Origin: Cytidiella melzeri | Lineage: Eukaryota > Basidiomycota > Agaricomycetes > Polyporales > Irpicaceae | Assembly: GCA_022592445.1 (NCBI GenBank) | Contig: JABYQR010000081.1 | Coordinates: 78,028-142,027 of the forward strand | DNA length: 64,000 bases | Direction: 5' to 3' | Shown here: positions 3,103-64,000 of the stretch, one piece after another | Layout: every line of letters begins with the position of its first letter | Numbering within the stretch: position 1 is the first letter of the stretch | Notes under the pieces: model-generated | The model's database searches: none | Told to the model about the DNA's origin: nothing | Seen by the model: the letters and a program-made list of their open reading frames with translations, nothing else | Translations under genes and position numbers: made by a program

Positions 3103-4201
3103 ATTTCTAGCCGGAAAATAAGCGCTCTAGATAAGTGCCTGATACTGTAAACTTTTGACTGTGATGGAAAAATCTGGTCTCTGTTGGACTATCCATGTCA
3201 GATTACTCGTTTTGTATTTCTCTTCTAATCTTATCCACCTTTGTAAAGTAATATAAAAACCATGTAACTTTTGTATCTATTCTATTGAATAACATTGTGT
3301 TCCTCTAATCTGAGTCCCCTCCCGTGCGCACATCAAAACCCTGCAATTACAACAATTCATTTTTGAGCCTGAACTTCAGCAATTTTCGCGGGCCGCATGT
3401 ATTTTACCACTGACGGCGGGAGGCGCTTTCATGGTTATTAACCTGACCTCCACTGACCATCCATTTAATAACACATTATTTACCTGAGGTTATAACCCTG
3501 GGTTATGAACCTACCCCAGAGCTGTAATATTGTTCTTAAAAAATTGCGCAAGCTGTGACACTGCGCTTGATGACAGCACTTTGGAACGTGCCGAACAAAG
3601 TCTGAATACGCCGATGTGACGATCTCACCAATCTGTACAAAAAAGGGGACCCATTTTGCAACATGTCTCGATGCCGGCAACGTTCCGCTCGTTGTGAAGC
3701 CCGTACAATTCTCTCCGGAAAGCATCAATCAGAGGATAATCTAATTTCTCATAAAAGTCCGATTCAAAGTGACGAGATGTGCATTTAATACTCATAACTG
3801 TTTGCTAAAGGGGTCCAACGACAGTACGACAGTGAACACAAAGTGGTCGTGATCATGAGATGAATTGAACTGGTTGAAGGAGTTGAACCGCCAGAATAAG
3901 CGCCATATTACAGCTTGCGCTTTCACCACCTCTGCTGTGACACAGTCGTCTGTTTCTGCACCTCAATACCACTTGGTATTACCGAGGCAATCTCCTCCAA
4001 TATCCTAGCTCAAGTATATGACCACACAGCTGAGCCAACATTTTATTTGGCTCGCGGAACGGACCACGCAAGCTCAACGACCTTCTGGACGGCGCAAGGT
4101 TTGCAAAGAGCTGTAAAGGCTGTATAGAACCCCAGGAGTTGGTATATCTGTGCGTTACCTCTGGCTGTCATCTACATACACTGTTGACTCTTCAGTAGAA
4201 C
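3103..4201. other. intergenic; upstream region of the AUR1 homologue
   Basis: No coding signal is recognisable. The ORF at 3480-3728 (minus) and the one at 3915-4127 (plus) are short and match nothing known. The segment next to 4202 presumably holds the AUR1 promoter, but no clear TATA box is seen. Confidence 0.4.
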
Positions 4202-5560
4202 ATGAGTAGTCTCCCAGGGCTTCTGCGCAGAGTATGGACGGCTTTCGTAGCAGCAGTAGGGCGGCTGGACAAGTCCCTGTCACCAAGCGACACATACAAA
4301 AAGTTCAGAAAACATAATTTCACTCTTTCAGACAGTATCTACCTCTTCCAAATATTCCTGGCTACTTTCTGGTTGGCGATCATGCAAGTTCCCGGCTACC
4401 CTTTCAAACTGCTGATACCCCTTCTATTTACCATTGCCCTCATTATCCCGTTCACCTCGCAGTTCTTCGTACCCGCCAGCCCTATATTCTCCTATCTGCT
4501 GGCCTTTTACAGCAATCGTTTCATACCTGCGTCATTCCGTCCAGGTGTGTCGGTCGTAGTCCTACCTACCCTCGAATCCGTGCTATACGGTGCGAACATC
4601 TCGTCTATCCTCACCCGCTTTACACACCCCATCTTGGACATCATGGCTTGGATACCCTACGGCGTAGGCCACTACATCATTCCCTTCGTCGTCGCGGCCT
4701 TTCTATGGCTTTTCCGTCCCAAGGAGGCACTTCATCAATGGGCTCGTATCTTTGGGTACGTCAACATGATCGGCGTCCTCACCCAAATCCTCCTTCCTAC
4801 TGCTCCGCCATGGTACGAAGTCGTTCACGGGCTCACGCCAGCCAACTACGGTATGCATGGTTCCCCAGGAGGACTATTGCGCATTGACAGGCTCTTTGGG
4901 GGCAACGGCTACACCGCCGCCTTCACCAACTCTCCCCTTCCATTCGGCGCTTTCCCCTCTCTGCACGCAGGCTGTGGTACACTCGAGGCCCTATTCATCT
5001 CCCACTTCTTTCCGTCTATGACTCATTATGCCTGGACATACGTTGCGGTGTTATTTTGGGCAACCATGTACATGACACACCACTACCTCATCGACGTCGT
5101 TGGCGGGGCCTGCCTTGCTGTAGCATGTTTCTACTTGTTGCTACCGGACGAACTCAAGGGGCCGATGGCGACTGCGCCTCCAGGTGGATCGGGAGCCAAC
5201 GGATACGGCGGACGTCGATCCAAGTACGAAGTATATGACTTGGAGGACCCGTTACGGTCCGGCGGCGGTCGGGGAAATGGGCATCTGATGCGCGATGCGG
5301 ATTACGAGTTGGAAGAGGGGTCTGAGAGGGAGTCGGACGACGAGGAAATGGACATCACGTATCGTTCCCCAATCCCTAATGGCCCTAACTCTGCCACGCC
5401 CCTTGTCAGACCAGGAGGAACTGCAGATCCGAAGAAAAGTCATCGGCATACGGCAAGCATTGCTAGCTTGATTAGATCAGAGGAGAGGGCTGAGGAAGGG
5501 TGGAGTCCTATCACCAGCTCGTTCAACTTCCCACCGACGCCTACTCGCGGAGAGCGCTAG
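4202..5560 (+). CDS. AUR1: inositol phosphorylceramide synthase catalytic subunit
   Basis: A single-exon gene of 452 codons. AUR1 transfers phosphoinositol from phosphatidylinositol to ceramide in the Golgi, the committed step of fungal complex sphingolipid synthesis and the target of aureobasidin A. The protein has several hydrophobic membrane spans in residues 45-180 and two PAP2-superfamily motifs: PSLHAG with His255, and HHYLIDVVGG with His294 and Asp298. These fall at the same residue numbers as the catalytic triad reported for yeast Aur1. The block around GMHGSPGGLLRID (about 219-231) is also typical of the family. After the last span there is a hydrophilic, acidic cytoplasmic tail (about 320-452), longer than in the 401-residue yeast protein. 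The start codon gives a full N-terminus. It is convergent with the exchanger gene downstream. Confidence 0.95.
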   Translation: MSSLPGLLRRVWTAFVAAVGRLDKSLSPSDTYKKFRKHNFTLSDSIYLFQIFLATFWLAIMQVPGYPFKLLIPLLFTIALIIPFTSQFFVPASPIFSYLLAFYSNRFIPASFRPGVSVVVLPTLESVLYGANISSILTRFTHPILDIMAWIPYGVGHYIIPFVVAAFLWLFRPKEALHQWARIFGYVNMIGVLTQILLPTAPPWYEVVHGLTPANYGMHGSPGGLLRIDRLFGGNGYTAAFTNSPLPFGAFPSLHAGCGTLEALFISHFFPSMTHYAWTYVAVLFWATMYMTHHYLIDVVGGACLAVACFYLLLPDELKGPMATAPPGGSGANGYGGRRSKYEVYDLEDPLRSGGGRGNGHLMRDADYELEEGSERESDDEEMDITYRSPIPNGPNSATPLVRPGGTADPKKSHRHTASIASLIRSEERAEEGWSPITSSFNFPPTPTRGER

Positions 5561-5803
5561 AGCGCTTGAACACGTGTTGCTTGTATGTTATAGTAGACTC
5601 TGGCGTGAGGACATAGCTAGCAACAGTGTTGGTGGTTTGGGTGAAATTTGACTCTAGACTGCACAAGTACAATATCAACAATGAGGGGGAGCGCAGCGTT
5701 ACAGAAAACATGAGCAATAGGATACATATGTAACAACAAATGAAGAATGAATGAGAATGTGAGCTAGAGTTCCATGTTAACAACAAGATAAACCCCGTCG
5801 ACC

Positions 5804-8178
5804 TCAAAGCGAGCGCTGAAAGAATCGTGCAGCCTGCGGCAAGGCCTCGCCACCGCCTTCACCAGCTCCCTCGCCTGCAAGGGCTTCTGCAACGCTTCCA
5901 GGACAGTTTAACATCAGTTGGAGTTCTGGCTGCCCCACGTAGAACCATGCACAAATTGCCTGCATCCACACTGGCGCATTAGCCCACAATATCACTTAAA
6001 ATAGAGCTTACGTACGATCATAATGTAGAAGCAAACCAGAATCATGCCCTGGAGGTGAACAAATGTCAGTTACACTGCAAATTGTACATGATCCTCAAGC
6101 GTAGCGTAGACGAACCTCGACCCAGTTGGTCTTAGAGTCGGCGGTGACATAGTTGACAAGGAAGCACGAGCCAAAGACGATTGCGAGCTCGAAGTAGTCT
6201 ACAGCGCAATTCACCCATGGTCAGTTCGCTTTACTCTTTGTCAATGCCAACCACAGCCACTCACCAAACAAAAAATGCATCGGCTTGTCAACCCACCAAC
6301 CAAGCAGTACAAGAAACGGCATCCAGAACAACGTGAATTGGATACTAAGGTCGATGGCGCGGCCTTTGGCAAGGGATGACGGGACCATGGTTTTCTTTCC
6401 GCGAACGTGATTGATGAGCGACAGGGCAAAGAACGCGATGGCCACGACGCCGTCGGCAGAGAAGGAAACAACAGGGAGTAAGATGAGGCCGAACCACCTA
6501 TGCACGACACGACAAACGTCAGAAGAATATATTGAAAGTAAGTCGACGACGTTTGTACGCACTCCTCTTCTATGTTCCCGGATTCCCGAACACTCTCGAT
6601 GCTTTCGACGAGCTGCGTAATTCACCACTTCAGTCATGGACTGATTCTGCTCTTGAAGGATACTCACAAATTCTGCAGTGGTGGACATGATTGCAACAGT
6701 CACTACCAGCAAGACAATGCACGCCCACGGATTGATCTCGGGCTCCTCAACGTTCGATTGGTGTTCTTTAAATTTCACCTCTTGCGGGGCGTTCGGTGCA
6801 AGCTTGAGTGCGTTTCCTTGGCCTGGCGGGTTATGCAGGTAGACTCTAGATAGAATGTATCTGGACCGTCACTTTGATCACTATGCTGACTTCTGCGATT
6901 ATGACAAGCATTGAGACACACACACTAGGAGAAGCACAACAGCCAAGCCACGGCTCATCTGGAGGATTTGTTGTCTGGTACTGTCTGTAAGCAGTTCGCC
7001 GGAATAATCTGCGACGCCGTTGGTTGCGACGGATTGAGCACCGCGATCCAAAGAAGCAAAGAATGCGGTAGGGAGGAGAATCGTCAGGACACTTTGTGGA
7101 CCAAGGTCAGCCGGACATAGCAAGACGGGAACGGATGAGACCAACCCAACAGCTAATAGTGAATGATTTAGTTCGGTATGGTGGGGATGCAGGCTTTGTT
7201 CCAGTATCTGAGCTCCTCCAGCGAGAAAGGCGGTCCCGGGTATGAGCAGCAAGTGGAGGATGACGACTCCTGCGGTTTATGAGCGAACTATACAAGCTAT
7301 TGGTACTATCACCTCAATACATACCAATGATTGTCGCTTGCAGCAGACGAAGTCTGCATCATCCATTAGTTAGTCTAGATCGGAAGAGGTGCTCTTAAGC
7401 TGGATTTGCTACTCACTCGCACTTTAACAGCAGCGCGATGGCCAAGGCGGCTTCCACTGCACTGTGTCGATATTCAGTGATGTTGGGGTACAGCAGTTCG
7501 TCAGCAAAGGGCGCACTTGTTCAAGGTGATGATGACCAGATCGCCAAGGGATACTCCGAGGTACAAGGCCATCTGCTCGCCATTCCAGTCGAACAATTGT
7601 TCCAGTGGGATAATGGATACGAAGCAAACTATATTGTTTTGAGTTCAGGGCTCGAAGACTCGCGAACCATGATGCTCACGTGCAAATGTTAGTTCAGTAG
7701 GCCAATTGCCACGGAGGCTCATGAAATGAGACACCCATGCAATAGGTATAACCAGGAGAAGGATGTTAAGCCCTGCATGTCGAATAAGATGATTCGCCAT
7801 GACTTCAGGCGCACAACACTCACACGACGATAACAGGACATTCTTTCCACTCTCTGCCCAGCCAGGTACCCGTCTGCCTTTCCCTGTCAACCGATGCCAG
7901 AATAGCTGCTCACGTTTCACGAGTTCTGCATACAGCGTGTCCTGGTGGTGTGAACTTCTGGTCGTACTTCGGGTTGCATCGGCATCAGCATGAGCGTCCT
8001 GAGTGTTTCTGTAGTCAGCCATGTTGGGTGATGAATGTTCCAGTTTGAGGCTGTCATGCGAATCAGTGGTTGCAGCTTGCATGTTTCTATGTCCACGCTC
8101 GATGTCGCTCATGGAGGTCCTACGATCGGCCGCCTTTGTTTCGACGTTGTTTGCACCTTGAACTGGCTTTTCTGACAT
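5804..8178 (-). CDS. Ca2+/H+ exchanger (CAX/VCX1 family), vacuolar
   Basis: Spliced gene read on the minus strand: exons 8178-7824, 7772-7680, 7628-7517, 7461-7417, 7353-7325, 7269-6924, 6845-6668, 6612-6563, 6497-6265, 6198-6116, 6048-6016 and 5959-5804 (570 residues). CAX proteins use the vacuolar proton gradient to move Ca2+ into the vacuole. The product has a hydrophilic N-terminus of about 115 residues, then the CAX core. The first half keeps N187-A-V-E190 (normally GNAVE) and AFLAGG; the second half keeps ESIE at 389-392, GLILLPVV and WWVDKPMHFLF, and ends in a normal last span. In the second repeat the usual GNAAEH is replaced by SFSADG, so one of the two conserved acidic motifs is changed from Glu to Asp. 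I chose Met at 8178 because the in-frame codons upstream lie in a pyrimidine-rich leader. Confidence 0.88.
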
Positions 8179-9442: not shown

Positions 9443-10411
9443 GAGAGCTTCCGTGGTAGTCGCGTAAGCACTCTGGGCACTGTCTAGCCATCGCAACCAG
9501 ATACATTGCTCTTGCTAGCAACGACCGTACTGGTAAAGAGCCGCAGTGGATAACCAAAGGGCTTGGTCTATTGGGCAGGGCTCGATAACCTGCTGCCGTT
9601 ATGCATGAAGACTTGTTTTAATGGAGACAGTACATCCTTCCACGTGTACAATAGAGCAGTCATCAGTAGCATATTCAAGTTATCTACTTTTCCAAGCAAC
9701 TTGAATATGCTGCTGATGGAAGACATGCGTCGTTAGCTGACCCCGCGGCGCCGTAGGGATTCCTCAAGCCTCGAAGATGCCCGAGTGCACCTGTGTCCTA
9801 TTTTGCCAAAACTGCCGGCTTCGGAAGATTGAGGCAGTGGTTCAAGTCTGTAACATCTGCCAGATGCCCCGACAACCACGCTTGCGCCTCGTGCCTGTTT
9901 TTGACAGTTGCGGTGATGTAACTTACTGTACCAAATCCCGCAGGCACCCCTCCAAGGCATATAACGCCCCACAAAGAGATCCCTTGTCATTTGACAACCG
10001 TATAGGCAGCAACCCCAAAACGAGCTGTAACGTTCGTGCAACGTGTTCATGGTGACGAATACTAGGTAAAGAGAGCGACCTCAAAAAGGTCAATCGAATG
10101 CGCTCAGTGTTCACCCTGAATCATACCAAAGCATACCCAGAGACAACTGAGGTGGCCCGTTTGAGCTGATCTTCGGCACTAGTCACCAGGATGGCGAGAC
10201 GAGGTCAATCCTGGCTGGCAGATCTCCGCAGCGACTCGAGTCATGCCTTGTGACGCCTGCGTAACAGCGTCAGCCAACGTTAGGGATCACGGTCACAGTC
10301 ACAACCTTATATATATAATTGAGGCTCGCTGGCCTTATCGCGACTCTCGTTCTCCCTTCATCTTCTACGGAGGGCGAACAACACTTGTCTACCAATTACA
10401 CTCTCACAAAC
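9443..10411. other. intergenic; contains a hairpin and the fungalysin promoter
   Basis: No convincing gene. The ORFs at 9777-10055 (plus) and 9733-10050 (minus) overlap each other and resemble nothing known. A TATATATA stretch at about 10309-10316 lies some 100 bases before the fungalysin ATG and is a plausible TATA element. Confidence 0.45.
9661..9718. repeat. 21-bp imperfect inverted repeat (hairpin)
   Basis: The arms at 9661-9681 and 9698-9718 are reverse complements with one mismatch, separated by 16 bases. The stem is AT-rich and has no T-run, so it is not a typical terminator. It may be the remnant of a small foldback element or a structured RNA. Confidence 0.6.
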
Positions 10412-13082
10412 ATGACCGGACTGCGTCGTTTGCTCGTCGCTTCCGTTGCCGCTGCTGGCCTCGCCGGTGCTTTCGCTCACAGCAGTACTCCTGAGCTGCG
10501 CCGCCGCAAGACCATGGGCTTCGGACCAACACTTCCCCATTCCGTGTTCACCACTGGCCACAGGTCGCCGATGCTCGCCTTCCGCTCGATTTCCGACCGA
10601 GATCCCCTCGAAGTTGCCAAGGAGGTCGCCGAGACGCTGACGTCTGGCGTCGTGGCGGCAGGAAGCTCGTTCTATATCAGGGATGACTCCTACACCGACA
10701 AGAATACAGGGGTTACACACGTGTATCTTCGCCAGACCCTATACGGCATCGAAATAGCAGACGGTGATCTTAACGTCAATGTGAAGGACGGCCATGTATT
10801 GTCGTACGGTGACTCAGTGAGTGATGGCGTATGTCGTGTGATGTCGTGTGCTGACCGTAAACTAGTTCTTCCGTGGCACGAATGTCGAACCACAGGGTGT
10901 GGATGTTCATGCGGAACACTGCAACAGCCTACGCTCGCAGTTTGAACATGCAATTGACTTACAGCGACAGTTGCTAGCTGCGCAAGGTCAGCAGACTGTC
11001 ATGGGCTCAGAACGCAGTATCCATGTCCCCGGAGAAGTCCCGGTTCTGTTCTCTTGGAATTGCGAACATGTCGCTACACCGTACATGATGCTCGAGCAGG
11101 CGAAGTTCAATGGACAGTCATCCCTTGAAGACCCGTCGCAGGCGCTCCTGCAGTTCATGATCGCAGCTACTCCTGAACAGTCGTTGGCTGCAGATATTGT
11201 TCGCAACCCGCAGCGATATTTGGAGAAGATGACAGTCGTACCCCAAGACCATCTCGTTGGGGATGACCGCGTAACACACACGAGTTTCATTCACAATGTA
11301 CCCGATACCGTCAACCCCGTCAAGGCCCACATTGCCTTCGTCCAGGTTCCACATGGCGATACGACTGCACTCGAGCTTGTCTGGAAGTTCGAAGTCGAAA
11401 TGGAGGACAACTGGTATGAGGCTGCTGTCACCAGCGCTGCGCCTCATCGCATCGTGTCTGTCGTGGACTGGGCGTCTGACTCACCGATGCCCGTGCAGGC
11501 GCCTGTCCCAAAGGAGCCGCACGGTGCCACATACAACGTCTTTCCCTGGGGTATCAACGATCCTCAAGAAGGTAATCGTACAATAGCCAAGGAAGTTTTC
11601 GACCATCTCGCTAGCCCCGTTGGTTGGCACTCGTTACCTTACGCCAACGATCCACAAAGCACGGGCGCGTTGAAGGCTAAGGAGGGTCTCAGGAACACAA
11701 CTGTCACATGGGGCAACAACGTTTTCGCTCATGAGAACTGGCAGGGCGAAAACGCCTGGATCAATAACTACCGTCCTGATGGTGGTTCAGACCTCGAATT
11801 CGACTACCCTTACGATCCTCAGGTCACCGAGAAGCAGGATGCTTTGAAGGAGGCAAAGAAATTCATTGACATCGCAGTCACTCAGCTCTTCTATACCTCC
11901 AACATGGTGCACGACTTGTACTACAGGTACGGCTTCGACGAGGTGGCGGGCAACTTTCAGCAACACAATTTCGGCCGCGGTGGTCGCGAGAACGATGCCG
12001 TCATTGCTAACGCCCAAGATGGTAGCGGATACAACAATGCAAACTTCATGACGCCACCTGGTAAGTCGTGAGTTTCTTCTAGATTGTTCCATGTTGATCT
12101 CCTCGCAGATGGTCAGAATGGACGTTGCCGCATGTATCTCTGGAACACGGCGACTCCATATCGCGATGGTGATCTTGAGGCTGGTATCGTCATCCACGAG
12201 CTTAGTCACGGATTGAGCACGCGTCTCACTGGTGGACCCGCTAATTCCGGATGCCTCGGCTGGGGTGAGTCTGGTGGAATGGGTGAAGGCTGGGGAGACT
12301 TCTTGGCCACTACCATTCGCAGCACGAAGAACTACTCTGACTACCCTATGGGTGCTTGGGCTGCTAATCGTGAGGGTGGCATCCGTAACTACCCTTACTC
12401 CTTGGTATGTCTATTCATCGTCATGATACACAACATGTATTGAAGTCTTGACGACCCGTTATTTAGAATGACACCATTAACCCATCTACGTACAAGACGC
12501 TGGATAAGCCTGGTTACTGGGGTGTGCACGCCATCGGTGAAGTTTGGGCTCAAATCCTCTGGATTGTCTCCCAGCGTCTCATTGCCAAGCACGGGTTCTC
12601 CGACACCCTCTTCCCTCCTGCTCCATTTGCCAATGGTACTGTTCCTGAAGGTGATTTCTACCGTCCCCAGGCATATGACGCCTTTGGCAAGAAGAAACCC
12701 CTTGTTCCCATCCATGGCAATTCGCTCATTGTTCAGCTTGTTCTCAGTGGCATGAAGCTTCAGCCATGTCGCCCGTCGTTCTTTGATGCCCGTGACGCCA
12801 TCATTCAGGCTGACCAGGTATTGACTGGCGGTGAGAACTACTGTGAGTTGTGGAGCGGATTTGCTGCAGGCGGTTTGGGTCCAGATGCTCGCGTCGATGG
12901 GCGTACCCCTTGGGGAGGAGGAGTCCGCACTGATGTAAGCATATCGTCGCTGATTTCAGTAGCGAAATTCGTACTAACTGGCATTGATCCAGGATTATGC
13001 CGTTCCTTCGCGTTGCGGAAGTAAGGCTCCTGTTTCCAAACCCGGCGATGAAGACGAGGAGTTCGCTGCTTGGGCTCTCTAA
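10412..13082 (+). CDS. secreted M36 metallopeptidase (fungalysin)
   Basis: Exons 10412-10816, 10866-12060, 12109-12404, 12467-12934 and 12993-13082 give 817 residues. Fungalysins are secreted zinc endopeptidases made as zymogens. The product starts with a signal peptide (about residues 1-25), followed by a long propeptide region that ends near the segment [16 protein letters not shown]. The catalytic part follows: HELSH at 563-567 gives the two zinc His and the catalytic Glu564, and GGMGEGW supplies the third ligand at Glu593, 30 residues on, as in known fungalysins. It is longer than the roughly 630 residues of Aspergillus fungalysin, mainly in the propeptide and C-terminus. All introns have GT-AG ends. 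A TATA-like element lies about 100 bases upstream. No lesion was seen. Confidence 0.92.
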
Positions 13083-23641: not shown

Positions 23642-26600
23642 ATGCCTCCTCATCGGTGTTTCCATTGTGGTGCCACAAAGCCTACCGCACAAGGACTCAA
23701 AGCGCACATACAGCTGAACAATGCCTGTCGGAGATCTCGGGACTCGGCCGCAAGAATTGGTACAACAGCTGTGCAAGCAGTGTCAAACAGAGCAAGCTCC
23801 GAGTCGCCATCAGCCGCTGCCCAGAATATTGCCATACACAGCTCAGACGACGCACCTGATGGTCATGAGCCGCATACACCGCCATCGCCACTCTTGGACT
23901 TGCCGCCATCCAAGCGAACACGAGTTGAGGCTGCACCGGATGCTAGCGAAGGACACGAGGCAGGCGGCATGCCAAAAAATCCATTTCTTGATGACCACTG
24001 GTATACGTCTGGTCAAGCAGGAGCTGCGACGGGTCGAGGACGAACTCTGTTTGAAGTGATGCACGAGGAGAGAGTACAAGAAGGGGTTGAAGCGGACGCA
24101 CCGTGGGTTCCCTTCGCCAGTGAGGAGGAGTGGGGCTTGGCCCAATGGATGATGCATAGCGGACTGAGTCAATCCGAAATTGACAGGTACCTAAAACTTG
24201 ATATTGTAAGTAAGAGCATTATTTAGAATCAGTGTTCGCTCTTACCGGCCTTTACAGATCCAAAACCGCTCGCCGCTGTCGTTCAAAGATAAGCGGGCAT
24301 TTTTTAAGAAGATTGACAGTCTTCCTCGTGGGCCTGGATGGCAGTGCGAGCTTTTTGAACTGCAGTGTGAGGAGAGAAGCGAAGGAGAGAGCGGTGTCGA
24401 GGTGTTTGAACTTTGGAAGCGAAATCCTGTAGAGTGTATCCGTGAGCTGATGTCAAATCCGACATTCAAAGACAACCTACGCTACGCACCAGAACAGCGA
24501 TACGAGGACGATAGGGGAGAGAGACCTGTCCTCGGCGAGATGTGGAGTGGTGCGTGGTGGGAGAGAGTACAGGTGAGTAAACGAGTGGAGACGCGGAAAA
24601 CCAAACTGATAATCACCTGCGCAGAAACTGCTCCCAAAAGGAGCTACACTTGTTCCTGTGATACTCGCGTCTGATAAGACGCAGCTGTCAAACTTCAGCG
24701 GCGATAAGTCAGCGTGGCCTGTTTATCTCACCATAGGTAACATCTCGAAGAGCTTACGCCGGTCCCCCTCATCCCATGCGACTGTTCTACTTGGGTACCT
24801 ACCTGTGGCGAAACTGGAGTCCGTCCCGAAGGCCAAGCGTGCTGTACTGGCCTATCAACTCTTCCACGATTGCATGCGCTCGCTCCTGGAGCCACTTGTC
24901 GAGGCGGGAAGGAAAGGAGTGGAGGTTGTCTGTGCTGATGGGTACGTCCGCAGAGCCCACCCTATCGTGGCCGCGTACGTGGCTGACCATCCGGAACAAT
25001 GTCTCGTGGCCTGCTGCCAGGAGAATCACTGCCCAAAATGTCTCGTGCAGCCCAACAAACGGGGTGTGCCTGTCGACTTGCCGGTGATGCGAGACCCTGA
25101 GAAGATGCTCGCAATGATATGCAGCGCGCTCGAGGGAAACAAGGGGCCAGGATTTGCGGAGGCTGGTTTGCGTTCCATCCATCCTTTCTGGGCGAACCTC
25201 CCTCACTGCGACATCTTCACCTGCCTGACACCGGATTTGCTCCATCAACTGCACAAGGGAGTTTTCAAAGACCATACCGTGAAATGGGCGACAGCATGCA
25301 TGGACGGCAAAGAGGATGAAGTCGACAGGCGGTTCCGCACCATGCCACTGCATCCGGATCTTCGCCACTTCAAGAAGGGCATCTCGCTGGTGTCCCAGTG
25401 GACTGGTAACGAATACAAGCAGATGGAAAAGGTATTCCTCGGCGTTGTTGCGGGAGCTGCTGATCCAGACGTCGTGAAAGCGGTGCGAGCCGTTCTCGAC
25501 TTCGTCTATTACGCTCATTACGAGGCGCACACCGAGGACTCACTTTCATGCCTACAGGACGCCTGGATCCGCTTTCATTCGCACAAGCACGTTTTTGTGC
25601 GTCTGGGAGTTCGTGACGACTTCAACATCCCGAAGCTTCATTCGATGAGCCACTACATCGACTCAATCCGACTTTTTGGATCGGCGGATGGCTATAACAC
25701 CGAAGGACCTGAGCGGCTTCACATCGACTTCGCGAAGCTTGGGTATCGCGCTAGCAACCGCAAGCAGTACATCCAGCAGATGACGACCTGGATGGAGCGC
25801 CAGGATGCGGTTCGAAGGTTCGACCAGTACCTTCAGTGGCTCAAGGCCGGCCACAACTCACAGCTGCCTTCACGCTCGGGAGACAACGACACTGAAGAGG
25901 CAGAGGACGCAGAGAAGGATGGCGAGGAGGTTGAGCAAGAGACAGCACCGGAGAGCCACGCGCGGGCAGACGTCGACTCAGAGGAGTACACTATCTCAAA
26001 ACGTCCGGCGTTCCCAAGCACGTCAGTCAAGACAATCACTGAAGAGTTTGGTGCACTGGACTTTATTCGTTGTTTGGAGGACTTCGTCACGAAGACAGTA
26101 GCGTCCTCATCAGCCAGCCGGCCCAGCCTACCAATACAGGCTGCCTCGAACGCGCACTCCTTCCTCCGTGTGGTCAACATGTACACAACATTTTCAGTCT
26201 ACAAACAGTTCAAGAAGCGGCTCCCGCGTATGAGCCAGGTGTCAAAAACACTTGCTATGGACTCGATTCGCGCAATACCTGCAAAGTCCGCGGGAGGTCT
26301 TCGACCGGCGACTCCATCCCAATTTTCGACCGTTCTTGCGCGTGAGGGAGTGGTCGACAGCACCCAAGACTCAGAGAGAGAAGACGGAATATCTAGCCAC
26401 CCTCTGGACGGTGAGTATCAGTTTTCATGGTGTTGCGCGACTCGGAGTCTGTACGCTAACTTGTAATACTAGGGATGACGGTCGGACAAGTTAGGCTTCT
26501 TTTTCGACTTCCGAGCAACATGGAGCACGTTAGCAAGCATCCGCTGGCATATATCGAGTGGTACACACCGTTCCACCGATACGACGATCTCACCGGTATG

Positions 26601-31135: not shown

Positions 31136-31296
31136 AGAGCCAATAGCCCATGAATTTCGCCGGTCAAACGTGTTAGGGAAGTGGATTCGCACGATAAGGA
31201 GTTGAATGTCGGCGAAAGTTGATATCGATGCGAATATCGCGGGGCGGGCGTTCAAATGACCTCGTTCGACTCGGAGCGTGAAATTTGCGCGACAAG

Positions 31297-31876
31297 CAGA
31301 CTCCTACCCAGTCGCCGTCGGTCGAGAGAGCAGAGATACGCTGGGTCTCGAGGGGTGTTTGGTTGTGTTTAGTGTAATACTGTATATAGAAATTGATCAA
31401 TCCAACACGTGTTATTCCCAACCTTATTTCTGCTTCCCTCCCTCCGACGACTGGCACTTAACAACATTCACCCGTCCTGAAAAAACCGTCAGAAAGTAGC
31501 AGTTGCAGCGGGCACTCGCAGCCGCAGGCCAACATGGGGCTGGGGGTCTATGTCTCCCTTTCTGGTTCTGCCAAGTATAGGTTGTGACACTTGGGCGGTG
31601 CCTGAACACCACTGCCTCGCTGTCCGGTCCACACCACTCATCCGAGGACTGTATAAAACAACCCACAATCGGGACGGGCGCTGGCAGCCGTTTCATGGTT
31701 TCCGAATATGGTCTCACATGTAACTACGTTACGCAAGGACCTTTATAAACTCAGATTAAAAAAAAAAAAAAAAAGACTGGCACTTAACAAGTGTAAACAA
31801 TGATTGGCGCCGCGGCCGGCGCACGCGGACTTTCAAGTTAACTCAAAAAATAACTCACATTTCTGATTATTGTGAC
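31297..31876 (+). repeat. left terminal inverted repeat, split by a retroposon
   Basis: Matches the reverse complement of 37397-37650 from the outer CAGACTCC to the inner ATTATTGTGAC. The similarity is broken by the 310-bp insertion plus its duplication at 31465-31790. Confidence 0.85.
31465..31774 (+). mobile_element. SINE-like retroposon with poly-A tail
   Basis: A 310-bp segment ending in A17 (31758-31774) is flanked by a perfect 16-bp direct repeat GACTGGCACTTAACAA (31449-31464 and 31775-31790). The right-hand terminal repeat of the host element lacks it, giving the empty site. Poly-A plus a long target duplication indicates LINE-type retroposition. No clear pair of A and B boxes was identified, so it could be a SINE or a retrocopied transcript. 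Confidence 0.82.
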
Positions 31877-31908
31877 TTAGACCCATTCACTAATAACCAA
31901 CCAAAACA

Positions 31909-34759
31909 ATGGAACAACGGCCCGAATCCTCTGGCTTTACTCTACCTACGACTAGTAATACATTGCAGCAAATACCAACTATCAAAGAAATTCATTCAGC
32001 ATGCCAGGCCGTTTTTGGACTGAGAGCTTGCCAGCTGCAGTGTCTGTTTGCACAGGGTTTGCTTGGCCGGAAAGACGTACTCTTCGAGGTTGGCACTGGG
32101 GTCGGAAAGACTCTGGCATTTTGGCTGCCTCTGCTATTTCGCCCAATGGTGTTCAGATGGTCGTGGCTGCTCTGAATGTTCTCGGCGAGCAGAATGTTAC
32201 CCAGCTGGCTAAGGCTGGAATCAAAGCTGTCACGGTCAACAGTGAAACCGCAACAGCTGCGAATTTCCAGGTGAGTCATTCAATGTCTCATATTACTCTG
32301 GCTTGTATCTGATAGATTTTACGAGGCTATTGAGAATGGGATATATCGGGTGGTGATAGTCAGCCCCGAGCAGCTGATGAAGCGTGGCGGAGGTTTTGAA
32401 AGGCTATTGAAGAAGCCGGAGTTCGTCGGACGCATCATTGGCGTTGTTTTTGATGAGGCACATTGCACTAGCACATGGGGTGCTTTTTGACCAGAATACA
32501 AAGCTCTTGAGCAGCTACGGCATGTGGTACTGAGAGATATACCTATCGCTGCTGCGTCTGCCATGCTACCTCACGCCGTGAAGGAGGATGTCATGAAAAT
32601 ATTGCATTTCCATTCTGACAGATTGGTCCGAATATCTCGACCCACAGACTGGCCAAATGTGCACTTGGCTGTGCGAAAAATTCAATACCCACTCTCCAGC
32701 TACCTCGATCTTGTGTTTGTCCTCCCCTCGGATCCACACAATACTCGCTCTAAATTCATCATTTTTTCGATAGTGTGGCAGAGGCAGTTGGTGCGGAAAA
32801 AATACTACGGAGCTGCCTTCCAGCAGAACATGTTGACAAGGTTTTGTGGTTTCACTCGGAGATGTCAGAGACATTCAAGAGGGATGCAGTCAAGAGGTTG
32901 AAGAGGGGAGAGTTATGGGGCATATGCGTGACAAACGCGTTTGGCATGGTTAGTGTCCCAATCATGGATGCATCATTGTATTCTCAAGCTCATTCTGTTC
33001 TAGGGGGTGGATATACCGGATATTTGTCTCGTAGTACAATGGAGAGCTAAATGCAGCATGTGTGCGCTGTGGCAACAATTCGGGTGCGGGACACAAGGTC
33101 CAGGTACAGAGGCCGTGGCAGTGTTCTACGTGGAGGCAAAATATTTTGATGAGGAGAGACGGAAGTCAGAGGCAAGAAGGCAAGCAAGACGGGCAAAGAA
33201 AAAAAAACGTGAGAAGGTGAAAGTACTTACATCAAATCCAGCGGTCAATAACATGTCACCACAGCCTCTCTTTCCTGTGGCGGCAGCTCTTCGAGGTGAC
33301 ACTGAGGAAAATCAGGCAGTGGAGGATGATCAGCTGCAGGAAGTGACTGACAATGGGGATGACAGCCCAAGCGTGACAGTTACAGTCCACGCTGAGACGT
33401 CAAAAATTGCCGTTGATGAGGATCTCCGCGCTCGCTACAGCCAGGTCAAGCTAAGCACACCAGGTCACAGTGGTAGGAAGAGGCCCGGTACTCACCTGGA
33501 GCTTGAGAACGCCACGGACAACCTGATCAACGCCAACACACGCAAGGATGTGAATTGCCGAAGAAAACCTATAACAATATACTTTAGCGGTGGTAAAGGT
33601 GGTAAGTAATTCTTACCTGATGGTGTGTTATCCACAAGCTGAGCAGATGTCAGTCTCAAACCATCTGCTCTGCGACACAACGAGGGAACACGGTTGTTTG
33701 CGCTGTGCTATCAAGATGCCAAGACTCTGCTGCCATTTGCACGGTGCCAAAGCGCTGATCGACGCTCTGCATCCTCCCACTACTGTCGAGCGATTACCTG
33801 GCAACTCAAAACGGTCTCAACTCAAGACATACACAACGGCGCCGGCCAATATGGAGTTGAAGGAGTTGCTACACCAGTGGAGAACTGCCAAGACTATAGA
33901 GAAGTACGGGCGGGGCAGTCTGGCTGACTTTGGCCCTGGGGTTGTCATCCCCGACGCTATGCTCACGCGAATCGTCAATTGCACTCACCACGGCAAGATT
34001 GAGAGTACGGAAGACCTCGTGCGTGAGACAAAGTGGGCAGGAGGGGAGGTCTACGGTGATGAGCTTTTGCATTTAATCCAGCAAGTACACCCACCTGCTC
34101 GACCCCCTGCTTTCACCACGGTTGAGCTCCGGGATTCTCGCCCCTCCAACTCGACACCTGAGGTCATGGCATTGGCTCCAACGGCTCAATGCAAGTGCGG
34201 TGCTTGTAGGCAGCCTGGACATACCCGTAAGTTGCTATAGACATTGAACACTGACAACTACTAATATCTTGCCGCAGAACGAAGCAAGAAATGTCCCATG
34301 TGGAATACCACTACGCAGGCCAAAGCCGCAACTTTGGAAGAAAACATACCTCCTTCCCTCATGTCGTCCTGTATCAATGTCCCTCTTCGCTCGCCTGCTG
34401 AACTCGTTGTTTCAAGTAGCTCTACCGTGACCAACATTGCTCGTGACAATGCTGCGTCTGCTTCTGCTCACACCGCCAACAACCCCCTCAACTCTCTACT
34501 GGCCTCCTTAACGGTGACTCGTCCTCAATGTGTGCTGACAGCTTCCGACTCCATACATACAGGTATGTCTCAGCTGTCAACATCTAGTTATTGCGTGTCG
34601 CTCAACTACACTAGACTTGCTCACGTCCTCTATCTCATCACACCCCTATCTCCAATCTTGACGGTCACATCCGCTAGTGTGACCTCAGCATCTTCTTTGA
34701 TGGTGGTCTCATCGGCATCCATGGCTTCGGGTCCTTCAGAAGCAAGAAGCGTGAACTGA
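31909..34759 (+). pseudogene. RecQ-like helicase of the inverted-repeat element, inactivated
   Basis: The start codon lies 33 bases inside the left inverted repeat. Walker A reads GTGVGKT (about 32090-32111) and motif II is FDEAH (about 32449-32463), followed by the second helicase domain (WFHSEM and the FGMGVDIPD block, split by an intron near 32948-33004). A C-terminal extension has Cys/His clusters (LLCDTTREHGCLRC, RLCCHLHGA, and CKCGACRQPGHT with KKCP), suggesting zinc binding. Lesions: a one-base loss near 32144, an in-frame TGA at 32488-32490 inside the conserved GAF.PEYKAL region, another frame slip in a T-run near 32766, and loss of the arginines expected in helicase motif VI (33070-33099). 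RecQ-like helicases unwind DNA 3' to 5'. A role in moving this element is inferred. Confidence 0.82.
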
Positions 34760-34769
34760 CCTTCATCCA

Positions 34770-37359
34770 TCAAATACGGGATGGAGTGCTTGCTCTTGCG
34801 ACCGGGAAAATCTCGTGAGGCTGCGCCTTCTGTAGATGCTGCATCACGGCCTCAAATGTTTGGGTCATGTCGGGCTCTGCATGTTTGGTTGTGAGATGAC
34901 CAAGTGTGGGATTTCTTTTGAAGGTTAAATGGAGGTCACGGTAGATCTGTATCAACACACTGTCGTCGATGATGCGCTGTTCTGTGTAATTCACTCCCGT
35001 ACTGCCATACTTTGTCTATGAAATAGTTTAGTGCACTTTTCTTTGTGCTCGGGTCGCAAACTTACCTTTGTATATAGGTTGTTCAATTCAAGACACCAGT
35101 CCAGCACCCTGAAACACCCTGGCTTTCCAGATGGATTGATTAGAATGCTGTAGCGAACAGCCCTTCTAGATTTACAACACAGAGGAGTGTTAGTATCATC
35201 TCTGTTAACATCTATTGTGCCATCTTTTGACTTACCTCAAACCCGGTGGATAAACGAAGTGGACATTTGATAGGTATTTCATCATGTGTTTCACGTATTT
35301 ATGCTTGCCTGTGGCTTTGCAAATCCAGATCCATGGCATGAAGCAAGACTCCACACGGCCGACGTCTCCGTGGTTCATTGCAAATGCCAGCTCTTCATAG
35401 AGACAGAAGTACTCGTTGAGGAGCAATCCATTCTCGAATTGCTTATTGCAGACACTGGACGGCTTGCTTTGTAAGTCAAAAATTTGGCTCTCTTCTTTCC
35501 GAGTGGTGTAGTTCATTGCGAGATGGTTTGCTAATGCCTTCAGATAGTCTAGTGACAGTTTTGATGCTGCAAACAGCTTCAATGAGGTGTGGGTAGGCTC
35601 TTGCTTCTGTACCTCCACTCGCCAGCAGTCGAGCCAGAGACATATACCAGCATGTTGTATTATCTGATGCATCCTCTGGAACCCTAGCTTTGACGCAACA
35701 CTCCCGGTCTCTCGCGGATGCAAGACACTTACATCCTTCATCAGGCAAGTCTTGTCCTCCTGTACAGAGCGTGGCTAAATGAACACTTTCCACAGTGCAT
35801 CAACACAAGCCATCTTGAGATGGAAAAGGCCAAGCACAAAGACCGCGAACTGCAGTCAAAGCCATGGTGTTTCTTCAATTGCTCGCCTCTCGAGTAATGC
35901 GTCAATCTTTTCACCGGTCCCAAGATTGCCATAGAAAAGAACAACATGATTGGTCGCGTCAACAACTGCTTGGCTCCCACCAGAATCTGCACGCACCACA
36001 CGAGGATCTCCAACACCAACCTGGGCAAGGATATGAGTCATGGCACTGATATTCCCAGCAACTTGTGAGTTATTGTCTGTGGTTGTTCTCAATGGTATGA
36101 TTGGCATCTTTGTTAAAGGGATTTTCTTGATAGGCTCTGGCTCACCAATACTTGCGGCAAAACACCGGAACTCTTCGGGGCCATGGTGGCAAAGATCATG
36201 CAGGAATTTCCAAGCGTTGAAGCGATCTCTAGTAGTCATGTTGTTTTCATCCAGCTCTCGTGTGTGAGGATGGATGAGCATTAGGTCCTGAGAGGTTTGC
36301 TTTGGTGGAAGGAGATCTCGTAACACACGAACATTCAGCTGTGATTGTTCCCATAGATATTGAGAACAGCGTAAATCATTCGCGGTGATGCCATGCTGGA
36401 GTGGAAAGACCATGGATGTTGTGAAGTGTTTCAATGTCTCGCCTGGCTTCTCCACGGTTGGCACTGATGACTTGAACTTGATGTCTAGATTGTCGTACGC
36501 ATATGCTGCTGAAAGTGTTTGCCCAACTTCTTTTGCATCGGAAGTGATATGTACACCAAGGGAGTGCAGCAAGCGGTGGATTGCTGTTTGTGAGATAGAG
36601 ATACCCATGTGAGCCAGTGAGTTCACGAGATTCTGTGGTGCGTGTATGGCATGCAGGAATATACCACACATGCTCTGCAGCCAGTTGGCTTTCTGGCTGC
36701 GCCCTTGCATGAGAATGCTACTAATCAAAACCTTTTTCTTTACTCATAGTCAGCTATTCCAATCCGCCTTCAAATAGTGGAGAACATACACTGATGATTG
36801 TAGCACAATGTCTCCTCCGCGCAGCTGCTGTTGGTTGCTTTTGCTTTCTCGTAAATGTGACAGGCGCATCTCCAAGATTGTTTGCCATCTCCTCTTCATC
36901 ACTTTCATCTGACTCCAAATCCTCATCACCCTTTGTGCCTTTCTTGAGCCATGCATCCAACATCTCCCACAGGTTTGGTGCTGTCGAGCCCATCTCCTGT
37001 GCCATGTCTATGAGATCAAACTCCTGCAAATGATAAGGCTCGACACGTCCTGCCACAAAATGCCACCCTGTGCCCTCTGATGCCAGCTTGTCAATCTCCT
37101 CACAGATAATCCCCAATATCTTATCCCTGTTCCAGCTGTGCATGGCTGCGCAGGTCTCCTGATGCTGGGAGATGGCTGTAATAATGTCCTTCCATGCCAC
37201 ACAGATATTGCACACCAGGGGGTGGTATGAGGCCTCCTGTTGTAATGCATATAGGATCAATGAGGATATAGTGATCTGATGAGAGAGAAGTATGCCATGG
37301 ATTTCTTTGAAGATGGTATACATGGTGGTGGTTGCTCGACACAGATACTGTTGTTGCAA
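34770..37359 (-). pseudogene. DUF6589-domain protein of the inverted-repeat element, inactivated
   Basis: Read on the minus strand, recognisable DUF6589 blocks are YAYDNLDIKFKSSVPT, GETLKHFTTSMVFPLQHG, TRDRFNAWKFLHDLC, GNISAMTHILAQVGVGDP, VVLFYGNLGTGEKID, FHLKMAC, LWLDCWRVE and, near the end, LDWCLELNNLYTKV and LTTKHAEPDMTQT. Stop codons interrupt it at 35856-35858 (TGA after ETPWL) and 35775-35777 (TAG after KVFI), and the exon junction near 36728-36790 does not keep frame with normal splice sites. The start is unclear; an ATG is available at about 37323. DUF6589 is common in Agaricomycetes and has no proven function. Here its place inside a transposon, without any other candidate, makes it the likely transposase. 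Confidence 0.8.
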
Positions 37360-37396
37360 TCATATCTAATCATCTTTCTGTCTGGAATTTTACCGC

Positions 37397-37650
37397 GTCA
37401 CAATAATCAGAAATGCAAGTTATTTTTTGAGTTAACTTGAAAGTCTGCGTACGCCGGCCGCAGCACCAATCATTGTTTACACTTGTTAAGTGCTAGTCGT
37501 CGGAGGGAGGGAAGCAGAAATAAGGTTGGGAATAGCACATGTTGGATTGATCAATTTCTATATACAGTATTACACTAAACACAACTAAACACCCCTCAAG
37601 ACCCAGCATATCTCTGCTCTCCCGACCGACGGCAACTGGGTAGGAGTCTG
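37397..37650 (-). repeat. right terminal inverted repeat
   Basis: A 254-bp reverse complement of the left terminal repeat without the retroposon. Matching blocks include the AACTCAAAAAATAACT stretch, GTGTAAACAATGATTGG and the outer GCAGACTCCTACCCAGT, with only scattered differences. Confidence 0.87.
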
Positions 37651-37941
37651 CGCGACAAGGGGTATTTTCAACAACACGCTGAGTTCAGCAGGTGAATTTC
37701 ACTGCTGCTGTCATCTGCTATAGCTACGTACATATATATGTATAACTTATTGGTGAAAGTTTCTGTAAGGGGTATGTATGTAGATATAGCTGCATAGTTT
37801 TTTTGTATCCCACATGATCAAAGATTATAATTCTACTGTTGTTGTGGCTAGCATTTTGGCACTCAGACTCATTGTGGTAGTATGATGTATTGAGGCATCT
37901 CGAGGCCTACTGCAGTGTTTTCTATATCACAGAAACATGTA

Positions 37942-40900
37942 CTATTGGATAGGATAAATTTGAACTACATTACATGGTTTCTGAGCTGTCCCGCACTGCT
38001 TCATCAACATCTGAAGCATAGAAAGCACCATCAGACCCTCCACTCCGATCAACAATGACCCAAGTTTGTTTGCCTGTGCAGTCCGAGGAAGAATGAGGGC
38101 CTGGATCCTTCCAACGAGAGACTGTACACAGGTCATGTCAATCACCTGTAGAGGTGACATGCTGTCATACATGTCCACCTTCAACGGACCTAGAGTGTGA
38201 CTGTCTGCCTTGCTGGTGTGGACATCTGCAAGTACAAATTGTGTTCTCTCCTGCAGACCAATTCTTGGTGCCGGTGCAACAGTTACCACAAGGATGTGCA
38301 GCAGCTTGGCGTAGAAAGTCTTAGGCTGAGACCCAGCAGGAGCATGGCGATAACAAGCATTTTCATCCAGCAGAATATCATACTGTCAACAAAACAAAAG
38401 TTCAGCTCAGTACCCAATGCTATCATAATTATTCTTCAGACTTACTCGGACCCATGTGGCATCCCGTCTATCCTCTGTAGGAGAGACCATTGAAGAGGCC
38501 CACATTGTATCACCCCCAAGACAACGTACACGGCCGTAACCTTCAATTTGAATGTTCATAAACTCACGTCGTATAAATGTGAGGGGTAAGCCAAATCGAG
38601 TGGCAAAGTGCAGGTGGACCCTTTGAATAAGCTGCAGATCTGCAGCAGCACTGGAGGGTAGACGAGGTGGCAGAAGAACACAGGTAGGATCTACAGCCAG
38701 AAGAGGGTGTGTCAGTGCCAAAGCTCTAGTGAGCATACATGACTCACAATTTGGAGACTGGAACTGCCCTTGAACCTGTGCATTAGGTGAAGGCCTGAGC
38801 AACAACATCTGGTGGATGTTATATCGAATTCCTTGCTGCTTGAGGCATGCATCGGAAAGAACAGTTAGCGCAAGGTTGGTGAAAGGATGGTGCCAACTTT
38901 GAATGGAGCGTTGCAGAATACCACAGTACCGTTCCATGGGGAAAGCCCAGTATGCCCATACAGGTCCCATAGCCTCAATGCTGTCAGCAATATGAAGAAG
39001 GGCATGAATGGTGAGTACGCAGGTTGAGAGGTGTGAGGGAGAGTATTGATAGTAGAATCTGCCATGAAAATATGACTTGATTCAGAGGGGTTTCCTGCTA
39101 AAAAGACAATCAGCTTACCTCTCGTACATTTCCACCCATGTGATGAATCCCTCTCGGATGTTATGGATGTTCTCAGGCAAGAGCTCAAAGGAGATACAGA
39201 GATTGAGAAGTGCAACAAGCTGGAGGAAGTGGTTGTAGTACTTGGCATTTTTGAATTTGCAGTCAAGTCAGCCCAAGGTACAGTGTCCAAAATGACCACA
39301 TGTCTGCTGTCAGATAAGAACAATTGTCCTTAACATTGGGAACACGAGGCCCATATGCAGAAGGAATGGTTGAGCCTGACTCAGCAGTAGCCTTGCCAAT
39401 TGCATCCCATACTGTCCTATCCAGCTGATACTCTTCTGTATCTTCATCTAGCCCTTTAAACTCACCCGTCCACAATAGTATCAGATTTGGAATGAGGTTC
39501 TCATAGATGGGATGCATGAAGTTGTATGGAAAAGATGCTGGGAAGGATAGCGAGCAGAGGGAGCTGAGAATAGAAACTCCTTCGATGCCATATTCTTTGG
39601 AAAGCCTTTTCTCTGCCGCTTGTGTGGGACTACCCTGTGCTTTGTGTGCCTGACAAAGAAATTTGGTGTGTGTCCGCAGCGGTAACTCCCTCGGATTGTA
39701 GCGTGCAGGTTGCCAATTGCCGTTCAAAACTGCAGGATGCTGTTATCGGTCCAATGGGCAATAGTACACTGTTGACAAGCTGTTTGGTACTCCTACACCC
39801 AGGATCTTGCACATACGGCATTGTGAGTAGCCGTTGTAACCCTTAATATTCATCACCATTGAGACTGCAGGTATGTCCCCTCCACCAAGAATGAGATAGA
39901 CATGTAGTGCAAACAAAGCTCGGGTCTGCGCATCCATTGTAGGGAGCCCAACCATCAGTGACAAGATTTCTTCAATCATAGGCCACATGAAGGAGTCAGG
40001 GTTGTGAGGCTTCTTGGGCCCTGGAATAACTCCCACGCAGATAAGGTTCTCTTTGCAAAAGTGCTCTTCTGGCGGTATGTCGTAGTTGATGAGAAGCAAT
40101 GGCCAGCAGGTCTGCTTGCTTTGTTTGAAAGGTGCAAACCCATCTGTAAGAAAACCAAGGGCTACATCATTGTTTCCAGAGAAGTAGTGGAAGGGATCAG
40201 TCTTGCCACCAATCTCAACCTTGGTGTCACAAAGAGCGCAGTAGTGCTGGCCATCAAAGATGTCGTTGATCTTGCTTGGGCAGTAACATACTCCAGGACA
40301 GCCCAGGCCGCTGAGTTGGTGATATCGGGAGCAGTCGGGTAAAGGGGGATTGTGGCGTGGTGGTAAAGGCTGGAAATTTGTACGGTATTGCAGCTTCTCA
40401 GCAAACTTCTGGTCTTTGTACATTGCTGTCAGACGCGGTGCCACAGGAATGTAAGTGAAGAGCTTTCAAGGACGACCAGATGAATTAAAACGGGGTTCAT
40501 TGCAATAAGGACATGTTTGACAGTCCATGTGTGGGCCAACAAAGCAGCAACATGAGTTGATACAGCAGTGGAGTGGTTTGGGATCCAATCCTGAGAGGAA
40601 CCCTGCCCGCGATGTGATCTTGTCCTCAGAAACGCATACAGCTGGTGTGCCGTCATCTTCAGCAAAGGCAAAGGGAAGCATGGAGAATGTCTCGCGTGTC
40701 ATTTTGGTTTGCGTCTTCAGGGCAAACAAGTGCAAAATGCGCTTATCCTGAGGACTGAGTATATTCAAGTTGTCTGTTTGCATAGACTGTCAGTACATCA
40801 TGTCCACTTTGTGGAATTAAAACTCACATGCGTCAAGCAGCTCCCATTCAAAGGTCTCGGTAAGTTGTTGATAGACGTAGAGGCCATCCTCATCTGGCTC

Positions 40901-60850: not shown

Positions 60851-61608
60851 TGACACGGAGACAGGGCTCGACGTGACAAACAGGGACACGATGTGGATGT
60901 CGACGAGGAGGTGGTGGCAGGCGTGAAGCACAATGCGTTCACCAGCTATCAAACTTATTCAGAAATCTAGCCCAGTAAAGACCAAGTTAGTATTGTGACT
61001 ACCAGCTATGTAGTACAAGAGGTGGTTGCTTACCTAGCCCAGTAAAGACCAAGAGGTCGAGATGGAGGGCTAGGAGCGTACATGCAGCAGTATATATAGA
61101 CTTCAGGGACCTGCGCACAGACCATGTTGAGGGCAGGCTTTGCAAGAAGCCGTGTGAACGAAGAACAAAAGAACTACCTAAAGGAGAACAATAGCTATTG
61201 TCTAGACCTTGCCAAGAACTCTACTCGTGAGAGAATCTATCTAAAAGGGGACCAACTATTGTATTCCATTCCCACACCTGTGAGAACATCCTTCCATAAA
61301 GAGAACAATAGGGAAAGAACAATAAGGAGTCCATGTGGACGTCATTTATGACATCAAACCCTAGCTATGGGCTGAGCCATGTGTCTGGAGCCATGTGGGC
61401 TTACTTAAGCTAAGTCACATGCCAGTGTGACGTAGTAGCAAGTAATGTGACCGTGTGGAGCGTCTAAGCCACGTGATACGGGCGCTTAATAGACGTGCAA
61501 AGGAGTTTATGCAGAGAGAATTGAAACTAGGTTGTAGCCCGGAGTTTTACAGATAAAAACAAGAGGTAAATTGCGAAAATTAAGGGCTAGTCAGGGCCAT
61601 CCATGACA
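60851..61608 (-). repeat. 3' LTR of the Gypsy element
   Basis: On the minus strand it begins TGTCATGG at 61608 and ends TGTCA at 60851, 758 bp. It lies directly after the polypurine tract. It is the intact counterpart of the solo LTR at 911-2167. The 5 bases outside it are GAAAG (60846-60850); the matching duplication would be beyond the window. Confidence 0.9.
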
Positions 61609-61773: not shown

Positions 61774-64000
61774 TCAGTGTGATGTTCTTGAGATATCCAG
61801 ACCGATGTGTTTGCCTTCATCCCAGCTAAGATCGTATGTAGATGGATAGATCGTGCGAAGGAAAGCGGGGTCGGTCTGGGTATTGAATTCCCGAAAGTGC
61901 GAGCGGAGATCCACGAAGAGTGAAGCTTTGATGACCCGGGGCGCTCCGGGGTTTGCTTTGTAGAAGTCGTCAATCGCTTCTTGACTATTCTCGAGGTTTT
62001 CTACTGGTTTCCAGCTATTGTGTCCGTCTGAATACCCTTCCCATTTGACTAGGAATTGCAGTTTCTTCCATCGTCCGTGTAGCCTGCTGTCTAACACTTT
62101 CTCGACAACGTACTGCTCTTCTCCGTCTATGACAATAGGATCAGGAGGTGGAGGTACGTCTTTGCCGTTGTCGTGCCAGGGCTTAGACGGTTGATATGGA
62201 AGACGGGGTGGATTCGGAGATAGCTGGGTAGATCGAGTTTGTAATCGAGATCGCCAATGCGTTCGATGACCTTGTACGGGCCGAGCTGTCGAGGACCGAG
62301 TTTAGGGGTAGCCTGATGAATCTGGACGTTCTTAGCATTTAGCCAGACCATGTCCCCTACTTGGAAGACGCGTGGAGAACGCTTCTCAGACTCGTAAAGT
62401 TGCTTCATCTTTTCTTTGCTTAGACGAAGAGCTGCTTCGGTCTCCTTTCGTACTCGAGCCATATTATCAAGGCGCTCATCGAGTGAAGGGATATTGCTTC
62501 GCTTGCCAACTGGTATAGTGAAGTCGGGGCGATATCCGTAGATGACTTCAAACGGTGTTTGTGAGTTACCCGCATGTACTCGCGAGTTGAGTGCAAACTC
62601 AGCCGCCGGCAGATGATCGACCCAGTCGTCTTGTCGTTGCTGACAGAATAGACGCAGATACTGTTCGATATCCTGGTTTTTGCGTTCGACTTTGCCATTT
62701 CCTTGCGGATGATAGGCTGTCGTAAAACCAGTCTCTATGCCTAGGCGGTGATAGAGCGCACGCATGAAGCGTGCTGCAAACTGGGGTCCTCGGTCAGAGA
62801 ACACCTTCTTGGGAATGCCGTGAAGTCGGAATACTTCTTTGTAGTGTAGATCGGCAATCCCCTCAGCGTTAACCTTAGTAGTAGTGGGGATGATGTGCGT
62901 TTGATCGGAGTAACGGTCGACGTAGACCGCGATCGAATCAAATCCCTTAGAAGGTGGTAGCTGAGTGATGAGATCTACTCCGACGTGTTCCCAAGGTCCG
63001 GCCGGAGTTTCCTGAGGCTGTAGTACTGCTTTAGGGTGCGGAGCTGACTTATAGCGTTGACAGCGATCACAACCTAGTACGTAAGTCTCGACGAAGGCAT
63101 TCATCTTTGGCCACCAATAGTGTCGTGAGACTAGCTCTATGGTGCCATGTTTGCCCGGATGACCAGCCGCGGGTGGTCATGGCAAGATTTGACGATTTCG
63201 TGACGGAGCTCTTTGTTGTTAGGGATGTAGAGTTTTCCCTTGTAATAGATGAGCCCGTCACTCTCTTCCCATTCGAGTAAACCGCCGACAAGTTTGCGAG
63301 GACCCTTCTTTCGAAGGGTAGCGAGAGCTTGGCGACTTCTGCTTCTTGTTCCGTGCATTCTCGGATCTTTGATTCGAGGGAGAAGCAGTGGCAAGTGCAC
63401 TGGTGCGAGGATCGGAAGTGTTCCGGTTTCAGTACCACCTGATCCTTGTTGTCTTCTTCGTCCGTGACAGCGTGAGAGTGAAGACGAGAGAGAGGATCAG
63501 CGTGTATCATGGTACTACCGGCTTGTGTACCAACACGAAGTCAAGTCAGCCAAAAGTAATGACCAACGTGCTTGACGTCGAGTGAGGTGTTGCGCAGTCT
63601 TCCAGTACTGCAGGTTTGCGTGATCTGTCCAGATCTCAAACGGTTCCTTGAGCCCCTCAAGGTAGTGGCGCCAATCTTTGAGAGCTTCGGTGATGGCTAA
63701 CATCTCCCGATCAAAGATTTTGTAGTTACGTTCTGCTTCAGTCATAGATGCGGACCGGTAGGCGATAGGGTGGTAGAATCCATCTTCCTTCGATTTCTGG
63801 GAGATGATTCCACCGGTCGCATAGCCCGAGGCATCGACTTCTAGACGTGTAGGGAGTTCAGGGTCCCAGACTGCCAAGATAGGCTTAGTGGTAAAGGCCT
63901 TCTTTAGCAGCGTGAAGGCAGTCTCTTGTGCTGGACCCCAAACAAACGGTACGTCCTTTTTAGTCAGGTCGTGTAGAGGCCGTGCGTGCTTTGAGAAGTC
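61774..64000 (-). pseudogene. pol: pol polyprotein (RNase H-integrase-chromodomain) with single-base frame slips
   Basis: From 64000 leftward: the RNase H region (LEVDASGYATGG, IAYRSASMTEAERNY, FDREMLAITEALKDWRHYL, TDHANLQYW), an HHCC zinc domain (CHDHP..., VLGCDRC), and the integrase core with Asp in VGVDLITQL, Asp in VFSDRGPQFAARF and Glu in GKVERKNQD. The GDMVWLNAKNV and LGPYKVIERIGDLDYKL segments come next, then a chromodomain (EQYVVEKVLDSRLHGRWKKL, FLVKWEGYSDGHNSWKP). The catalytic residues are present, but the frame slips by one base at about 63560, 63515, 63335, 63165 and 62190, each explained by one missing base. The copy therefore looks dead unless these are sequencing errors in short runs. 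Confidence 0.85.

Follow-up and report, generated by a model that had tools for sequence, protein, structure and literature searches.

A decayed helicase and DUF6589 transposon in the fungus Cytidiella melzeri, in all likelihood of the AcademH kind

What kind of mobile DNA carries a RecQ-like helicase gene and a gene of DUF6589, a Pfam family listed as of unknown function, side by side between inverted repeats? The question is raised by a 64,000-nucleotide stretch of the Cytidiella melzeri genome (termed the window), in which an element of 6,354 bp occupies positions 31297-37650, on contig C712 of the 731 contigs that make up the 49.7-Mb genome. In all likelihood it is an AcademH element, an autonomous DNA transposon that moves by cut-and-paste, here in a decayed copy; DUF6589 is very probably its transposase. 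Its parts are given below, where L041 denotes a copy of the same family, on contig C568, whose reading frames are open.

31288..31296, no strand: target site duplication, left copy CGCGACAAG (control pairing of ends; single copy at empty sites L065-L067)
31297..31464, + strand: left terminal inverted repeat, outer block, starting CAGACTCCTACCCAG (repeat comparison; genome matches)
31465..31774, no strand: nested poly-A insert resembling a short interspersed element (SINE), 310 bp (16-bp duplication; genome matches)
31791..31876, + strand: left terminal inverted repeat, inner block (repeat comparison)
31909..34677, + strand: gene for a RecQ-like superfamily 2 helicase with a zinc knuckle, four introns by homology to L041, broken
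34770..37323, - strand: DUF6589 gene, probable transposase, three introns by homology to L041, broken
37397..37650, - strand: right terminal inverted repeat, 254 bp, ending GGAGTCTG (repeat comparison)
37651..37659, no strand: target site duplication, right copy CGCGACAAG (control pairing of ends)

An earlier account made from the letters of the DNA (the sequence-only reading) had described 254-bp terminal inverted repeats and an exact 9-bp flanking duplication, and both are borne out. The right repeat is unbroken; the left also sums to 254 bp, in two blocks because the 310-bp poly-A insert sits inside it, and the arms are complementary at 95% in the outer block and 93% in the inner. The insert is bordered by a 16-bp duplication of its own, GACTGGCACTTAACAA (31449-31464 and 31775-31790), and belongs to a family found in at least 40 genome places at 94-100% identity, its own copy included (best 40 of 92 candidates). 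The termini of the window family are CAG..CTG, and the 9-mer CGCGACAAG abuts both ends without mismatch. It occurs a third time in the window, at 14043, in different surroundings. A chance origin of the flanking 9-mer is ruled out by a control, in which none of 132 mispaired element ends shared 5 bp or more, and by the empty sites.

The element lies inside another dispersed repeat (flanks 31137-31296 and 37660-37820). Joined with one copy of the 9-mer, the flanks gave 40 genome matches, the window's own two included, and match uninterrupted at other genome places. All three places read (L065-L067) have a single CGCGACAAG and no element. The window element moved as one unit, as had been claimed. 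Moreover, the copies on C405 and C397 have no differences across 6,088 bp, yet their flanks and 9-bp duplications differ, and therefore the family was recently mobile in this host genome. A genome search for empty sites of the C405 and C568 insertions returned only their own flanks.

Related copies share these ends. With the outer repeat (31297-31470) as query, 41 matches were found in the genome, and 20 regions were fetched for inspection. Substantial parts of both genes are present in nine of these (L039, L040, L041, L042, L043, L044, L045, L048 and L053). L042 is truncated by a contig end; L049, which has the helicase only, appears to be its other half, because the flanks of both yield the same 9-mer. 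L046 (C237) and L047 (C20) are 1.97-kb derivatives, likely non-autonomous, in which both ends persist along with the 9-bp duplications. A 12.6-kb derivative includes L051, and the remaining regions hold helicase pieces only (L054), DUF6589 pieces only (L055, L057 and L058) or the inverted repeat alone (L050, L052 and L056). An exact 9-bp duplication, varied in sequence, was found at 11 of the 12 testable end pairs and none at the twelfth (C177). Left out of this count were C45 (right repeat cut short), C121, which is L002 (right end lost), the outer left end of C236 (unpaired with a right end) and all single-ended matches. Among the 12 pairs is C151, whose DUF6589 falls in a far-diverged subfamily, only 16-20% identical to window-type sequences; its termini are different (TAGTCTCG) and its duplication is nonetheless 9 bp.

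Two copies have arrangements of their own. L043 (C236) has two adjacent left inverted-repeat ends at 734-1046, and only the inner one has a duplication in common with the right end. The L041 insertion (728-6797) apparently lies within a gene resembling a fungal Zn2Cys6 transcription factor, as judged by eye from the flanking frames.

The pairing of the two genes also recurs in the genome. Six-frame matches to PF20231 (DUF6589) number at least 120, clustered to 82 loci, and 14 named control genomes gave none; a search with residues 1-388 of the predicted helicase found at least 124 matches, clustered to 69 loci. Both searches scored best candidates only, so that the locus counts are lower bounds. 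A helicase lies within 8 kb at 50 of the 82 DUF6589 loci and not at the other 32; 48 of the 50 pairs are convergent, one is divergent and one is on the same strand. Helicase loci lacking a partner in this count were 20 of 69. Some pairs escaped it: C168 and C636, scored as unpaired helicases, do have a DUF6589 piece nearby. Across 24 paired loci the identities of the two proteins co-vary (Spearman 0.83, with values read by eye and exons mixed). The correlation is weak for the 15 distant pairs alone (0.30, p 0.28), and we give co-variation little weight.

The window genes are convergent, as the sequence-only reading had it, with the helicase on the + strand and DUF6589 on the - strand. It had put them about 10 bp apart, which needs revision: in L041 the predicted genes overlap at their ends by 33 bp, and in the window copy a frameshift leaves the predicted ends 92 bp apart. 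These gene models are predictions from the L041 open frames and homology. They give a helicase of 868 amino acids with four introns (55, 55, 52 and 57 bp) and a DUF6589 protein of 833 amino acids with three (58, 70 and 50 bp). The L041 helicase matches PF00270 (DEAD, 1.3e-18) and PF00271 (Helicase_C, 5.4e-12). Where the sequence-only reading saw a zinc-binding C-terminal extension in the window helicase, the Pfam scan of the L041 protein gave a CCHC zinc knuckle, PF15288 (E 3.4e-6), and reported no RecQ zinc-binding domain. The helicase core, queried as the first 388 residues, is nearest to recQ_fam (3.8e-44), at 151.2 bits and thus below the curated cut-off of 219.8; the nearest solved structures are RecQ and WRN.

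The L041 DUF6589 protein matches PF20231 at 2.2e-92. With the whole protein as query and hits allowed up to E 1, the one other Pfam match was a weak one to Arg_repressor, and no P element or hAT family was listed. Two AlphaFold models align best with the P-element and Hermes transposases, which are of the DDE (aspartate, aspartate, glutamate) type, at middling scores. The ISCth4 transposase, which we take to be related to Mutator-like elements (MULEs), is also among the structural matches. Foldseek alone returned nothing significant for the models, and a viral fold library had no match at E 0.001 or better. Together with the recurrence of the pair and the duplications, the DDE-like predicted fold supports the proposal of the sequence-only reading that DUF6589 is a transposase and the helicase its partner, and this is what the two look like.

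The element had also been called complete. This holds for its structure, but both of its genes are broken and the copy is dead. The DUF6589 gene has TGA and TAG in frame, a late frameshift and a change of GD to GN, which probably hits (D to N) the second catalytic residue; the helicase gene has an in-frame TGA just past the DEAH box, plus frame breaks. The window copy was compared with C405 and C568 wherever those two agree. It carries 257 changes private to it, 183 of them C-to-T or G-to-A, and CpG sites account for 141 of the 183. In the window copy 20% of CpG sites are changed, versus 1-2% of other C sites, a pattern that looks like decay of methylated DNA.

Movement of the intact element was most likely cut-and-paste. 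The transposase would pair the inverted repeats, cut, and join the ends to target strands 9 bp apart, and host repair would fill the 9-bp gaps to give the duplication. The helicase is probably a dedicated partner; as a guess, it may open the DNA at the ends, or aid repair or re-replication of the donor gap. The analysis shows unit mobility and duplication of 9 bp, recurrence of the gene pair, sequence conservation, with two invariant D residues in DUF6589, and a predicted fold; we infer catalysis, the identity of the E residue, the step that the helicase serves and membership in AcademH.

The rest of the window holds other mobile DNA. Genes for a Plavaka transposase, a Transposase_21 (tnp2) and an integrase core with a Tf2-like SH3, the last probably Gypsy-like, were found (24658-26466, 39743-40444 and 62127-63104). 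Three inverted-repeat pairs of 106-318 nt, 89-97% complementary and about 59 kb apart, link 923-2167 with 60851-61595, and may represent a single repeat present twice in opposite orientation. At 10319-12071 are pieces of a fungalysin propeptide and peptidase M36 in neighbouring frames. Rfam at gathering scores and ARAGORN found nothing across the window.

The element is filed as AcademH because its helicase type, fungal setting and 9-bp duplications match published Academ and AcademH elements; membership is accordingly probable, the main defining feature, transposase homology, lying outside this basis. The foremost alternative, which we hold to be unlikely, is a separate superfamily that merely resembles AcademH, with helicase partnership and duplication length of independent origin and DUF6589 a transposase of its own kind. 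A RecQ-like partner would then have been retained through deep divergence, and helicase-assisted DDE transposition would have arisen more than once. The diversity of the DUF6589 copies (16-22% identity between distant groups in the genome) speaks for it, as does the open-licence literature searched, in which no text located states that DUF6589 (PF20231, IPR046496) is the AcademH transposase or ties it to Academ; the accessible portions of PMC10294476, PMC12210899, PMC11075540, PMC9004415, PMC12810828 and PMC4522978 hold no Academ transposase sequence or DUF6589 link. Against it, the recQ_fam helicase type, fungal setting and 9-bp duplications of this element agree with what is accessible of the published Academ and AcademH descriptions. 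The new superfamily suggested by the sequence-only reading finds no support, because earlier papers already describe Academ elements of fungi that carry RecQ-family helicases (PMC6416283) and an AcademH that duplicates 9-10 bp (PMC10045372).

That the element is a MULE that acquired a helicase is very improbable. MULEs typically have long inverted repeats and duplicate 9 bp, so both lengths fit, and the ISCth4 match points the same way; the scan of the full DUF6589 protein up to E 1 listed no MULE family, which speaks against MULE identity, though a distant relation may exist. More doubtful still is KolobokH, a kind of element within the Kolobok superfamily that carries a RecQ helicase and is confined to fungi. 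According to the accessible text of PMC9587614 it shares with our element the helicase type and the fungal distribution, and in one red-alga Kolobok the RecQ helicase is encoded on the complementary strand, an arrangement also seen in our element; the same text gives Kolobok TTAA-specific 4-bp duplications and RR..YY termini, whereas here duplications are varied, 9 bp long at 11 of 12 end pairs and absent at the twelfth, which contradicts Kolobok identity, and termini are CAG..CTG. That the helicase drives movement, with DUF6589 an accessory protein, has equally little to commend it: helicases are central in Helitrons (PMC12730594, in the part accessible), whereas inverted repeats, fixed-length duplications and the DDE-like DUF6589 fold point to a DDE mechanism, and the Pfam scan gave no Helitron domain in either protein.

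DUF6589 thereby gains a likely function, and genome annotators should be aware that genes of fungi with matches to RecQ helicase or to DUF6589 may belong to transposons. Since recently moved copies are present in this genome, the role of the helicase in a DDE transposon is feasible to test.

Among known systems, the P element and hAT (Hermes) are those to which the predicted DUF6589 core fold, with its helical insertion, aligns best. The P element duplicates 8 bp. For hAT, too, the usual duplication is 8 bp in the accessible text of PMC12730594, in contrast to 9 bp here. Fungal Academ elements are closer: as far as the accessible text of a 2019 survey goes (PMC6416283), copies carry PF00270 and recQ_fam (CDD:129701), both also matched by the L041 helicase, whereas DUF6589 and the convergent arrangement are unnamed there. 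Putative non-autonomous Academ elements are described as widespread in a mushroom genome (PMC8290104, accessible part). The comparison with AcademH is by description in citing papers. The AcademH lineage of Academ transposons was reportedly set out by Kojima (2020, Mob DNA 11:15), known to us through such papers. A 2024 screen (PMC10799480, accessible part) cites it as present at low copy number in Basidiomycota, Ascomycota and Mucoromycota, and the accessible text of PMC10045372 describes AcademH as helicase-encoding with duplications of 9 or 10 bp. Our element likewise encodes a helicase, in a fungus, and duplicates 9 bp; no difference appears in the features compared, namely helicase, fungal host and duplication length. 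What this locus most likely adds to the described AcademH is evidence for DUF6589 as an AcademH-like transposase.
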